Shown here piece by piece: positions 7,830 through 38,315 of a DNA stretch of 47,552 nucleotides (position 1 is its first letter; every line of letters starts with the position of its first letter). A program made the position numbers and the translations under genes. The notes under the pieces were generated by a model. That model had not been told where the DNA came from. It made no database searches and saw only the letters and a list, made by a program, of their open reading frames with translations. The DNA comes from Chloroflexota bacterium (GTDB lineage: Bacteria > Chloroflexota > Dehalococcoidia > SHYB01): NCBI GenBank assembly GCA_016875535.1, contig VGPF01000014.1:1-47552 (forward strand), written 5' to 3'.

Positions 7830-7913
7830 TGGTGCCAAGGGTGGGACTCGAACCCACACGGGTTGCCCCAGCGGATTTTAAGTCCGCCGCGTCTGCCGTT
7901 CCGCCACCTTGGC
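7830..7913 (-). tRNA. tRNA-Leu (anticodon UAA)
   Basis: Read on the minus strand the gene starts GCCAAGG (7913-7907) and ends in the complementary acceptor strand, with discriminator A and an encoded CCA (7832-7830). The anticodon arm is GCGGA-CTTAAAA-TCCGC, giving anticodon TAA. A long variable arm and the TPsiC arm (GGGTTCGAGTCCC) are present. It forms the boundary of the integrated element. A TACAAT box ends 11 bases upstream of the gene. Its first 25 bases are repeated three more times upstream. Confidence 0.95.
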
Positions 7914-8216
7914 GTATGCGGTGTATTGTACCGTCGAACTAGAGGACGCGGCGGACTTGGGGATTTTCTTTCTTTCGCCTGCGGCTGGCGCGTCTGCCGT
8001 TCCGCCACCTTGGCGTATGCGGTGTATTGTACCGTCGAACTAGAGGACGCGGCGGACTTGGGGATTTTCTTTTTTTCGCCTGCGGCTGGCGCGTCTGCCG
8101 TTCCGCCACCTTGGCGTATGCGGTGTATTGTACCGTCGGACTAGACGACGCAGCGGACTGAGGGATTTTCTTTCTTTCGCCTGCGGCTGGCGCGTCTGCC
8201 GTTCCGCCACCTTGGC
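7889..8216. repeat. Three 101-bp tandem repeats built on the 5' end of tRNA-Leu
   Basis: Units are 7889-7989, 7990-8090 and 8091-8191, plus a final 25 bases (8192-8216). Each starts with the 25 bases that form the 5' acceptor strand and D arm of the tRNA-Leu gene, identical in all four copies. The 76-base rest includes a TACAAT promoter-like box just ahead of the tRNA part. Units 1 and 2 differ by one base; unit 3 differs from unit 1 by five, so it is the older copy. Unit spacing is far too long and too tRNA-like for a CRISPR. Confidence 0.95.
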
Positions 8217-18515: not shown

Positions 18516-19325
18516 TTAGGCGCCGCCGCAAAAGACCTCGTAGTCTATGAGCTCTTTCACCGTCGGGTGGTTGCCGCAGAGGGGGCACTTGGGATCGCGG
18601 CGCAGCTTGACCTCGCGGAACTCCATCTCCAGCGCATCGAAGATCATCAGGCGGTTCACCAGAGGCCGGCCGAGGCCGAGGATAAGCTTGATCGTTTCGA
18701 CGGCCATGATGGAGCCGACGATGCCGGGGAGGACGCCGAAGACGCCCGCCTCGGCGCAGCTGGGCACCATGCCGGGAGGCGGCGGGGCCGGGTACAAGCA
18801 ACGGTAGCAACCCTTGCCGGGCTCGAAGACGCTGACCTGGCCATCAAAGAGGAAGATGGAGCCGTGGACGAGGGGCTTCTTGAGGAAATAGGCGGCATCG
18901 TTGCTCAGGTAGCGGGTGGCGAAGTTGTCTGTGCCGTCCACGATGATGTCGTACTGGCTGAAGACCTCCATCGCATTCTCTGAGTCCATCCGCTTGGCGA
19001 TCTGAATGACTTTCACATCAGGGTTGATATCGTTCAAGGTCTCGGCTGCAGAAACGACTTTGGGACGGCCGACATCGTTGGTGTCATGGAGGATCTGGCG
19101 CTGGAGGTTGCTGAAGTCCACCACGTCAAAGTCCACGATGCCCAGGGTGCCGACGCCTGCGGCGGCGAGATAGAGGGCCGTGGGAGAGCCAAGGCCGCCC
19201 GCGCCGAGGAGCAAGACCTTGGCATCAAGGAGCTTGCGCTGGCCGTTGCCGCCCACCTGAGGCATGATGATGTGGCGCGAATAGCGCTTCAGCTGTTGCG
19301 GCGTGAATGTTTTGGTCATCGTCAT
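18516..19325 (-). CDS. moeB: MoeB/ThiF-family adenylyltransferase (sulfur-carrier activator)
   Basis: The 269-residue product carries the E1-like fold: LKRYSRHIIMPQVGGNGQ, ATP loop LLLGAGGLGSP, NLQRQILH and DGTDNFATRYL. Zinc is held by CYRC (near 171) and CPLC (near 250). It adenylates the C-terminal Gly-Gly of ubiquitin-like sulfur carriers (MoaD, ThiS, CysO). It lacks the C-terminal rhodanese domain of MoeZ. It is read just before cysM (25-bp gap), so it probably activates a CysO-like carrier for cysteine synthesis. The carrier and a JAMM protease are not in the window. Confidence 0.88.
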   Translation of the reverse strand: MTMTKTFTPQQLKRYSRHIIMPQVGGNGQRKLLDAKVLLLGAGGLGSPTALYLAAAGVGTLGIVDFDVVDFSNLQRQILHDTNDVGRPKVVSAAETLNDINPDVKVIQIAKRMDSENAMEVFSQYDIIVDGTDNFATRYLSNDAAYFLKKPLVHGSIFLFDGQVSVFEPGKGCYRCLYPAPPPPGMVPSCAEAGVFGVLPGIVGSIMAVETIKLILGLGRPLVNRLMIFDALEMEFREVKLRRDPKCPLCGNHPTVKELIDYEVFCGGA

Positions 19326-35179: not shown

Positions 35180-35983
35180 CTAGGACTTGGCGGACGCGGC
35201 GGCTTCGGCCTTGGCGCCCTCGGCGGCCTTGACCTCTTCGATGAGGCGCTGCTGGCGGAGGGTGTTGCCTTCCAGGACCGCATCGGCGATCTTGCCGGTC
35301 ATGAGGCGGACGGAGCGGATCGCGTCGTCGTTGCCGGGGATGGGGTGGTCAATGAAGTTGGGGTCGCAATCGGTATCGTTGATGGCCACGATGGGGACCT
35401 TCATGCGGCGGGCCTCGGCGATGGCGATGGCTTCCTTGCCGGGGTCCACGACGAAGAGGGCATCGGGCAGCTTCTTGAGGGCCTTGATGCCGCTTAGGTG
35501 GTGGTTGAGCTTCGCGAGCTCTTCTTCCAGCTTGAGGGCGTCCTTCTTGGAGTAGCGGGCGAATTCGCCCTTGGCCTTCTGCTGTTCCAGCTGTTCGAGG
35601 TAGGTGATGCGCAGGGCAATGGTGGCGTAGTTGGTGAGGGTGCCGCCGAGCCAGCGCTGGCTGACGAAGGGCATGCCGCAGCGCTTGGCTTCCGACTCCA
35701 CGGCCTCCTGGGCCTGCTTCTTGGTGCCGACGAAGAGGATGACGCCGCCATTGGCGACGGTGGTCTTCACATAGTCGTAGGCCTTAGCGAGGAGGCCGAC
35801 GGTCTGCTGGAGGTCAATGATGTGGATGCCGTTGCGCTGGGTGAAGATGTACTGCTTCATCTTGGGGTTCCAGCGGCGGGTCTTGTGCCCGAAGTGGACG
35901 CCGGTTTCCAAGAGGAGCTTCATGCTGACCAGCTCTTGGGTGTTGCTGTTGCCCTGCTGTTTCTGTTCTAACGCTTGCTGCAT
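35180..35983 (-). CDS. rpsB: 30S ribosomal protein S2
   Basis: The 267-residue product starts [20 protein letters not shown]. It has [49 protein letters not shown] and [20 protein letters not shown]. The ATG at 35983 follows GGGAGGGG; upstream in-frame starts run into non-coding sequence. The Ala/Lys-rich tail is usual. It is the first gene of the operon ending at rseP. Confidence 0.96.
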
Positions 35984-36044
35984 ACCCCTCCCAATTCGAA
36001 AAAGACGCGCAGAAAGGCCACGGTCGAAGATGAGTGCGACGGAA

Positions 36045-36073
36045 ATCGTACCACAAAGGGAACAGAGGGGCAA
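36045..36073 (-). promoter_or_regulatory. Candidate promoter of the rpsB-rseP operon
   Basis: On the minus strand TTGCCC (36073-36068) and TACGAT (36050-36045) are 17 bases apart, about 60 bases ahead of the rpsB start. Each box matches the consensus at four of six positions. Confidence 0.45.
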
Positions 36074-36311
36074 CCGGAGGAGGGTGAAGGCACAGGGAGC
36101 GAGGAGGGAGTATTCATCCACTGAGCACACTGAACGCACTGAAAGGAGCAGGAAATGCACTCGGGGACTTTCACGGATGGAGACGGATTTTGAATGGCCT
36201 GGAGCTGCTAGGCAGGGTAGAACTTGTGAGGAACGGCGCAGAGGAATAGAGCGGGCACAGGAAATTGACCTGGTGGAGGACGTACCCTATATTGGCAGCA
36301 CAGGGATCCCT

Positions 36312-36524
36312 ATGACTAGCGTACAGCGACTTGTGAAGGAGCTCCGGGGGCTTTCCCGCAACGAGCGGAAGAGCCTGCGCCGGTGGTTCGAGCGTTTCGA
36401 CGCCGCGGCCTGGGATGCGGAGTTCGAAGCGGACGCCAAAAGAGGAAGGCTCGACCGGCTTGCCGAGCGGGCGCTGCGAGAGCACGGGGCGGGCAAATCG
36501 AAGGCGCTTTGCAGCCGAGTATGA
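36312..36524 (+). CDS. Small antitoxin-like protein, apparently orphan
   Basis: The 70-residue product MTSVQRLVKELRGLSRNERK ... WFERFDAAAWDAEFEADAKR ... LAERALREHGAGKSK follows the pattern of a common group of short antitoxin-like proteins that precede RelE-type toxins (helical start, WFxxFDAxAWDxQxExDxxxGKLDxLAExAL, then a short tail). The last six residues differ from the usual ending. A second frame overlapping the end reads RRFAAEYDRLVG before a stop. No toxin gene follows, so this is an orphan or the remains of a toxin-antitoxin pair. Confidence 0.55.
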   Translation: MTSVQRLVKELRGLSRNERKSLRRWFERFDAAAWDAEFEADAKRGRLDRLAERALREHGAGKSKALCSRV

Positions 36525-36751
36525 CCGGCTGGTGGGATAGGTGGAGGGCGCTCGATTAGAGAGAACGGGAGCGTTTGTCCAGGTGTGTAACATGCTTTGG
36601 GTGCGACACGCGGGGTGACGCGCCAGGTACGCCGAACGGGTGATCGTTGGACGTGGCAATGGGAAGGGCAGAGAGGGCGGGAAAAACGGTCGCGTGGACG
36701 GCAGAGGGGTCTCCGCTAGGCAGGAGAGCAGGCACCCTCCACATCATGTAA

Positions 36752-37248
36752 CGGGCCTTCGGCGACGAGGCGCGTCAGGCCCGGATAGTCCCGATGGCTC
36801 GGGCGAGTACTCCTTTTTCAGGCGTTCGGAACGCCCGGTGTGCGGCCGCCGCAAGAGGAGTGATGTCTCCGGTGAGAGGCGGGCCGAGCGGTGGCGTGGG
36901 CCGGCGGCATTCCCAGCAAGGGCGCCCTTCCGGCGCCGTTGCCCTCTCTGCCGACAGGGAGCGGAGACCTATCCCATGCGGTATGCCGAAGCGGCAGGGG
37001 CCGGATGGAAGGAAGGCCCGGAGTCCATGCCGGGCTTGCGAGACGATGCCGGCATCGGCGACCACCGAAGGTCCCGGCATCCCAAAGGGTCCGCGACGCC
37101 ACGGTCCGCTCAGGGCGTTGGGGGTGTGCCCAAGGCTTGACTCCCGCGCGTTCGCCTTCTGCCGAACCGCACCGGAAGCGGTCCGGCATTGGGGCGAGTG
37201 CGGGGAGCTGACGGAGGCGGCCGGGCGCGGGCCCTGTGCCGAAGGCCG
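36752..37248 (-). ncRNA. Candidate large structured RNA (unknown family)
   Basis: About 500 bp are packed with nested inverted repeats. The main stems are 36752-36758/36777-36783; 36809-36817/36853-36861 around a GGCGTT/AACGCC hairpin; 36865-36871/36962-36968 around 36921-36937; 37027-37034/37073-37080 around the 14-base palindrome 37044-37057; and a long interrupted hairpin 37141-37207 of about 22 pairs in four helices. CGGCC/GGCCG (37218/37244) adds a further stem. No tmRNA, RNase P, SRP, or group I/II intron signature is seen. The minus strand is chosen because a LexA-type promoter at 37346-37377 reads into it. A 177-codon minus-strand frame (36775-37308, with GAGGTG ahead of its ATG) also spans the region, so a protein is the alternative. 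Confidence 0.4.
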
Positions 37249-37345
37249 TCCACGCGACGCCCAAACGGAGGTGAGTCTTGCACAGCGCCTATGCACCGGG
37301 CTCGGCATCCTTCACCTCGTTTGTCCTTGCAACAGCCTACACATC

Positions 37346-37377
37346 AATATACACACGAACATCTGTTCGCATGTCAA
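37346..37377 (-). promoter_or_regulatory. LexA (SOS) box within a leftward promoter
   Basis: CGAACATCTGTTCG (37356-37369) is a perfect match to the Gram-positive type SOS box CGAAC-N4-GTTCG. On the minus strand it lies between a consensus TTGACA (37377-37372) and TATATT (37351-37346), spaced 20 bases; TGTATA overlapping it would give 18. LexA bound there would block the promoter. The expected transcript starts near 37338 and runs into the structured region. Confidence 0.65.
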
Positions 37378-37577
37378 AGGGGTGGGGGCGAACGAAGGGC
37401 CTGTTGGGTAAATCCCTTGGGGGAGTATGCTTGAGGATGTCGTGCTCCACCTTAATATTTGGATAGGCCATAAGGAACATACGAGGAAGACCAGCTAGCT
37501 CTCGAAGATGGCTGCCGTGCTTGTTGGATACGGAGCGCTGCGGCCCACTTCTCTGCTCTCGCAGGGAGAGGTCTCCC

Positions 37578-38315
37578 CTACCCCACCCACCGCACACTCG
37601 CGCCCCAGCGTTGGGCATGCTCTTGCGCCAATTGCTCGTACCGCGCCCTGTACGCGGACGAGCCGATCGCCTCCGTCGTCATGATCAGCGCATCTTCCTT
37701 GTTGTCCGTGTAATAGCCCTTGCGCACCCCGGCCGCCTGGTAGCCGTACTTCTTATACAACCCCTGCGCCGCCTGGTTGGAGACCCGCACCTCCAGCGTC
37801 ATCACGTGCGCCCCACGCTGGAACGAAACCTCCAGCGCCGCCAGCAGCAACAGCTCGCCGATCCCGTGCCGCCGGTGCTCATCCCGCACGCCGATCACCG
37901 TGATATGCGCCTCATCCACCATAAACCAAACCCCAACAAAACCCACAATCTTCTGTCGCTGGTCCTCCGGCGGCGGCTCCGGCTGGCTAAAGACCCCCTT
38001 CACCAGCTGCAGCAGGCCACCCTTGGCGGGCTCTTCAGGCGCGGGCGCATGGTCGAAGGCGTGAGCCTCGGCCAGGGCATTCTTGGGGTCCGCCGCCTCG
38101 CACGCCACCAGATATACGGCTGAACGATTCTTGAGTTCCTTTTTGAACGGCGTCGCGATCCAGCCGGCCGGAAAACAGGCGCGCTCCACGGCTGAGGTCT
38201 GGGGGATGTCTTCCATCCGCATGGGCCTCACGAAAAAGCCCATCGGCGGGGCGGGGGAGCCGTAGGTGGAGATGGCCCTATCCATAAGAGGTGCTACAGA
38301 TTCGGATTCTAGCAC
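37578..38315 (-). CDS. rimI: Ribosomal protein S18-alanine N-acetyltransferase (GNAT family)
   Basis: The 245-residue product has the GNAT core: IVGFVGVWFMVDEAHITVIG, VRDEHRRHGIGELLLLAALE (acetyl-CoA loop R/Q-x-x-G-x-G/A), and LEVRVSNQAAQGLYKKYGYQ with the RimI-type VRxSN and YKKxGF pattern. An insert of about 40 residues (AFDHAPAPEEPAKGG ... PEPPPEDQ) sits between the second and third strands. Specificity for S18 is by similarity only. It diverges from the sigma factor gene. Confidence 0.8.
   Translation of the reverse strand: MLESESVAPLMDRAISTYGSPAPPMGFFVRPMRMEDIPQTSAVERACFPAGWIATPFKKELKNRSAVYLVACEAADPKNALAEAHAFDHAPAPEEPAKGGLLQLVKGVFSQPEPPPEDQRQKIVGFVGVWFMVDEAHITVIGVRDEHRRHGIGELLLLAALEVSFQRGAHVMTLEVRVSNQAAQGLYKKYGYQAAGVRKGYYTDNKEDALIMTTEAIGSSAYRARYEQLAQEHAQRWGASVRWVG

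Follow-up and report, generated by a model that had tools for sequence, protein, structure and literature searches.

That mobile elements can be under SOS control is well established. To our knowledge the targets of LexA are almost always proteins, and few noncoding RNAs under LexA control are known. The motif bound by LexA in Bacillus subtilis and other Gram-positive bacteria is GAAC-N4-GTTC (PMC3323433). A LexA-controlled noncoding small RNA, IstR-2, is found in the tisB/istR locus of E. coli (PMC2826370). Large ornate RNAs, ROOL and GOLLD, occur in phages and prophages, and GOLLD rises during phage lysis (PMC12286853). Mobile elements under SOS control include the integron integrases (PMC3323433) and the GIL01 prophage (PMC4551915).

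We here describe a predicted LexA-controlled promoter at positions 37346-37377 of the window, i.e. of a whole contig of 47,552 nucleotides (C14) from a 2.52-Mb genome in 86 contigs that is 98% complete. With the SOS regulon of Gram-positive bacteria (B. subtilis) the locus shares the GAAC-N4-GTTC box and its location between the −35 and the −10 hexamer, as it is also seen at lexA and the IMS gene of the host. In contrast to that regulon the target is a noncoding repeat instead of a gene for repair, mutagenesis or division, and the spacer is 20 nt long. The likeness to IstR-2, which is drawn by description and not by sequence, lies in a noncoding RNA under LexA control, here a predicted one; on the side of the differences, we recognised neither a toxin gene nor a divergent partner at this locus, and the RNA predicted here far exceeds IstR-2 in length, has a long-range fold and forms part of a repeat. 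ROOL and GOLLD resemble it as large GC-paired noncoding RNAs that lack a protein partner and plausibly reside on a mobile element, but here there is no match to Rfam even at an E-value of 5, no adjacent phage genes or tRNA island, and no homologue that could inform the structure. LexA control of mobile or repeated DNA is the feature in common with GIL01 and the integrons, whereas this repeat contains no integrase, transposase or phage gene.

Precedents therefore exist for a LexA-controlled noncoding RNA, for large ornate RNAs and for SOS-controlled mobile elements, and their combination would be new; it stays a candidate because no homologues were found. Our best reading is an SOS-induced structured RNA that a LexA-repressed promoter expresses from a repeat element. 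This is an unproven prediction, and taken as a whole we regard it as about evenly balanced.

Promoter, LexA box and the box type of the host

The promoter consists of the following elements:

37372 to 37377, minus strand: −35 hexamer TTGACA, exact consensus by direct reading
37356 to 37369, minus strand: LexA box CGAACAGATGTTCG, half-sites perfectly palindromic, N4 = AGAT
37346 to 37351, minus strand: −10 hexamer TATATT, 5/6 of the consensus, 20 nt from the −35 hexamer

Read from 37377 down to 37346 the minus strand is TTGACA-TG-CGAACAGATGTTCG-TGTG-TATATT, which corresponds to AATATACACACGAACATCTGTTCGCATGTCAA on the plus strand. An earlier reading of the letters alone (the sequence-only reading) had reported these hexamers, the box between them and the 20-nt spacer, which direct reading confirms exactly; the leftward direction that it had assigned to the promoter is supported as well. 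Transcription would be expected to start at about 37338-37340 on the minus strand. The spacer is a poor fit to sigma-70, with 20 nt compared to 17 at the imuB-like gene and 18 at lexA of the host, and the promoter is missed by a standard scan for spacers of 16-18 nt.

The host genome encodes both lexA (TIGR00498, 175.8 bits) and recA (TIGR02012, 528.3 bits), each above the cut-off. Its lexA, on contig C38, is preceded by the tandem GAAC-N4-GTTC boxes GGAACGTCCGTTCT and AGAACGAGCGTTCG, the first of which sits between TTGACA and TATCCT with a spacer of 18. The box of recA (contig C21), AGAACGCCTGTTCG, lies between recA and a divergent gene that we take by eye to be radical-SAM-like. At a gene for an IMS-family (ImuB/Pol IV-like) polymerase on contig C24 the arrangement is TTGACG-GCATA-GAACGTCTGTTC-TATCCT with a spacer of 17, so that the box is positioned between −35 and −10 like the one at 37356-37369. 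The boxes before lexA and recA of the host are of the form GAAC-N4-GTTC, so an outermost C/G on the half-sites is not needed. The proposal that a box of the Gram-positive type is the LexA site of this host is thus borne out by the lexA, recA and imuB-like promoters; the sequence-only reading had staked its case on recA and lexA in particular, and both carry the box type.

Among the genomes searched, 18 of 21 possess lexA. A GAACNNNNGTTC box also precedes lexA in 7 out of 14 further genomes of the class, the count being limited to those relatives whose lexA start could be placed; the perfect GAAC-N4-GTTC lies at most 200 bp upstream in G002 (a member of the same family), G007, G019, G011, G010, G017 and G013. 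Checked at lexA, recA and the IMS polymerase, the box can serve as an SOS motif in this group.

Fold, repeat nature and conservation of the downstream DNA

The DNA behind the promoter contains the following features:

37263 to 37323, minus strand: 5' hairpin of the predicted transcript, CAAACGAGGTGA.../...TCACCTCCGTTTG, predicted fold
36681 to 37260, minus strand: structured core of the predicted RNA, from comparison of its fold with shuffles
37245 to 37258, minus strand: 5' strand of the closing helix P1, perfect over 14 bp
36689 to 36702, minus strand: 3' strand of P1, perfect over 14 bp, then CGTTTTT
36775 to 37308, minus strand: 177-aa open reading frame, judged noncoding (flat GC by codon position, no Pfam match, no relative)
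36614 to 36864, no strand assigned: part shared with the first bases of contig C26, 99% identity, two adjacent CC/TT differences inside

With its boundaries picked so as to include P1, the core (36681-37260) folds on the minus strand with −297.7 kcal/mol (z = −4.72), and none of 60 shuffles reached such a low value. The plus strand gives a z of −3.56, and because both strands fold, the strand assignment of the RNA rests on the promoter. The mean pair probability of P1 is 0.96, and an inverted repeat of 14 bp at any position occurred in 10 out of 2000 shuffles. Local windows of 200 nt are mostly unremarkable in their folding. Inverted repeats are about as abundant in two further parts of the window, one close to the tRNA gene at 7833-7913 and one in the vicinity of 15100, so their density alone is not special. 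The only substitution inside the C26 copy, CC to TT at 36791-36792, still allows wobble pairs if the plus strand is the RNA but disrupts two pairs on the minus strand, which is a small point against a leftward RNA.

A search of 35900-37700 against Rfam with E-values up to 5 returned no relevant match, a chance match to H19_3 lying outside the region; at the gathering threshold there was none, and thus no known structured RNA family (ROOL, GOLLD, OLE, group II intron and others) was recognised. The left edge, GTGACGCG, vaguely resembles the 5' end of a group II intron, a candidate that was rejected as Rfam gave no match. A pseudoknot with P1 is conceivable for a 12-bp repeat (36667-36678/36941-36952), a pairing so far unsupported. 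At the tRNA gene mentioned above (7833-7913, minus strand) a 14-nt piece of the gene recurs inverted at 7945-7958 and 8046-8059, within 7833-8059, as if a tRNA-derived attachment or repeat sequence adjoined the tRNA.

The stretch 36609-36864 recurs in reversed orientation and with 99% identity as the first 256 bases of contig C26, and the two partial copies differ at three positions only. At both of its locations the repeat has a sharp left edge (36609-36613); contig C26 breaks off within the repeat, before the promoter, and the shared part 36614-36864 corresponds to the 3' part of the structured segment. The C26 copy follows the end of a frame that we read by eye as aspartokinase-like, and a GC-rich inverted repeat immediately precedes the junction. 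Within the visible repeat, whose right end lies beyond C26, we saw no terminal inverted repeat and no recombinase. The sequence belongs to a genome-specific repeat of at least 250 bp, which may well be a small element that is, or once was, mobile.

The window carries chromosomal genes of an ordinary kind: rpsB, tsf, a GNAT acetyltransferase, an ECF-type sigma factor and a MacB/FtsX permease. In G001, the only congener and 70% complete, the rpsB side is conserved to about 36083 and is then followed by a different gene neighbourhood. An orphan 71-aa open reading frame on the plus strand (36309-36521), which lacks a Pfam match and is not followed by a toxin, looks by eye like an orphan antitoxin of a toxin-antitoxin module. 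Just to the right of the promoter, 37437-37470 matches contig C48 (2070-2102) over 34 bp with 91% identity; this may be a piece of some dispersed gene or repeat.

No homologous stretch of DNA was found in about 59-60 relatives, 393 genomes of the class, 400 of the phylum, phages and plasmids. The matches that were returned span only 27-49 bp, with E-values as expected by chance over hundreds of genomes, and the three in class genomes fall in long open frames. As no homologue was found in class or phylum genomes, phages, plasmids or viral contigs, structure and function are without evolutionary support. The sequence-only reading had counted it against itself if box and downstream sequence were not conserved together in relatives. 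They are conserved in none of those searched, among which the only congener is the incomplete G001, and this formally speaks against it. Its proposal of a new SOS target keeps the part that no recognisable gene lies downstream; as the sequence looks like a species-specific repeat, the target may be a LexA-controlled repeat or mobile element rather than a conserved SOS function.

Weighing of the explanations

The box could have arisen by chance between promoter-like hexamers and be free of LexA control. The perfect CGAAC-N4-GTTCG occurs once in the window and twice in the genome compared to five times for the reversed control, and because of this ratio the box by itself is neither rare nor beyond chance; the same holds for the shorter GAAC-N4-GTTC, with 17 sites in the genome and 94 for the control pattern. 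For the second perfect site (C4:34456), close to where a coding frame ends, no promoter-like context is seen, and the 20-nt spacer and the lack of conservation of the site point the same way. The combination of promoter and box is a different matter: the genome has a single TTGACA-N3-GAACN4GTTC-N2-6-TATATT, 59 relatives have none and the reversed control pattern gives no match, which is beyond chance. Furthermore, TTGAC within 10 nt of the box is seen at 5 of the 17 sites, and besides the one at 37356-37369 these are lexA, recA (on the divergent side), the IMS gene and one metabolic, PEP-carboxykinase-like gene. A coincidence is therefore quite unlikely in our view, and on the basis of the sequence the promoter at 37346-37377 is probably controlled by LexA. 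A scan of viral contigs for the same arrangement gave 44 matching contigs, none of them related in sequence to the region described here; this shows merely that the arrangement occurs in viral contigs too.

If the promoter is real, it might still drive a small protein, namely the 177-aa frame at 36775-37308, whose ATG at 37308 is well placed about 30 nt past the predicted start site and is preceded by the Shine-Dalgarno-like GAGGTGAAGG. The GC content by codon position of this frame is flat (0.70/0.71/0.71), unlike that of the neighbours rpsB (0.62/0.37/0.90), tsf (0.70/0.42/0.84) and the GNAT gene (0.67/0.45/0.80), and we rejected it as a protein gene on this codon composition. The frames that overlap it are also flat, and on both strands they are equally open. 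The longest open frames of the region had no match in Pfam, and translations of the two longest, used as tblastn-type probes, found no relatives in the genome contigs or the viral contigs. The predicted 5' hairpin would moreover hide the GAGGTGAAGG motif, the only one of its kind, within its stem. We hold the small protein to be highly improbable. Given transcription, the flat codon-position GC indicates that the target very probably is noncoding, in line with the sequence-only reading, which had seen no known SOS gene downstream. Another explanation accepts box and promoter as real and regards them as what remains of the SOS promoter of a mobile element that has decayed; the relic downstream would be transcribed without RNA function, and its folding would be a by-product of GC-rich inverted repeats. 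This fits the landing-site-like neighbourhood (the orphan 71-aa frame, the C48 match and the synteny broken upstream of rpsB in G001), the repeat copy on C26, the absence of conservation in all collections searched and the unremarkable local folding windows. On the other hand, the long-range helix P1 and the domain-wide z of −4.7 exceed what composition yields, the promoter elements are intact, and the 99% identity of the two copies indicates a young rather than a decayed sequence. The explanation as a relic is thus possible, though on the unlikely side, and that the RNA is functional instead of the DNA being a relic is the weakest step in our preferred reading of an SOS-induced structured RNA.

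According to this preferred reading, LexA on the box between −35 and −10 would keep the sigma-70 promoter silent, and RecA-stimulated cleavage of LexA would lead to leftward firing from about 37338. The transcript of about 650-730 nt would be noncoding and folded over long range, with the 5' hairpin followed by the core that is closed by the 14-bp P1, and would belong to the genome-specific repeat element. LexA binding, transcription, induction by damage, the extent of the transcript, mobility and the function of the RNA are all what we infer. If this is true, a large structured RNA on a repeat would connect the signalling of DNA damage with RNA-based mobile DNA, in an uncultured bacterium whose lineage has seen little experimental work so far. 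It is an unlikely but conceivable extension that a new class is represented here, i.e. an SOS-induced, long-range-folded noncoding RNA of about 650 nt on a small repeat or mobile element that uses the LexA of its Chloroflexota-like host and expresses RNA instead of protein.

Further sites of the box type in the genome

Some other sites of the genome are of interest in their own right. On contig C46 (about 19124-19135) TTGACA and GAACCTCGGTTC lie ahead of the PEP-carboxykinase-like gene, which we take to be a probable PEP carboxykinase from a frame read by eye; this box represents either chance or an unexpected metabolic LexA target. A second site with the N4 of the box at 37356-37369, GAACATCTGTTC, is found on contig C11 (about 50098-50133). 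It is embedded in the palindrome TTCTAGAATGAGAACATCTGTTCTCATTCTAGAA, which is perfect over about 34 bp and has a gene for a serine recombinase nearby, and it might be the site of a regulator or of the recombinase. On contig C4 (about 49047-49167) a 261-aa protein without a Pfam match has the box GAACGTGCGTTC and a second, imperfect one, GAACGCCTGTGC, further upstream beside TTGACG, and is likely a further SOS gene of this group.
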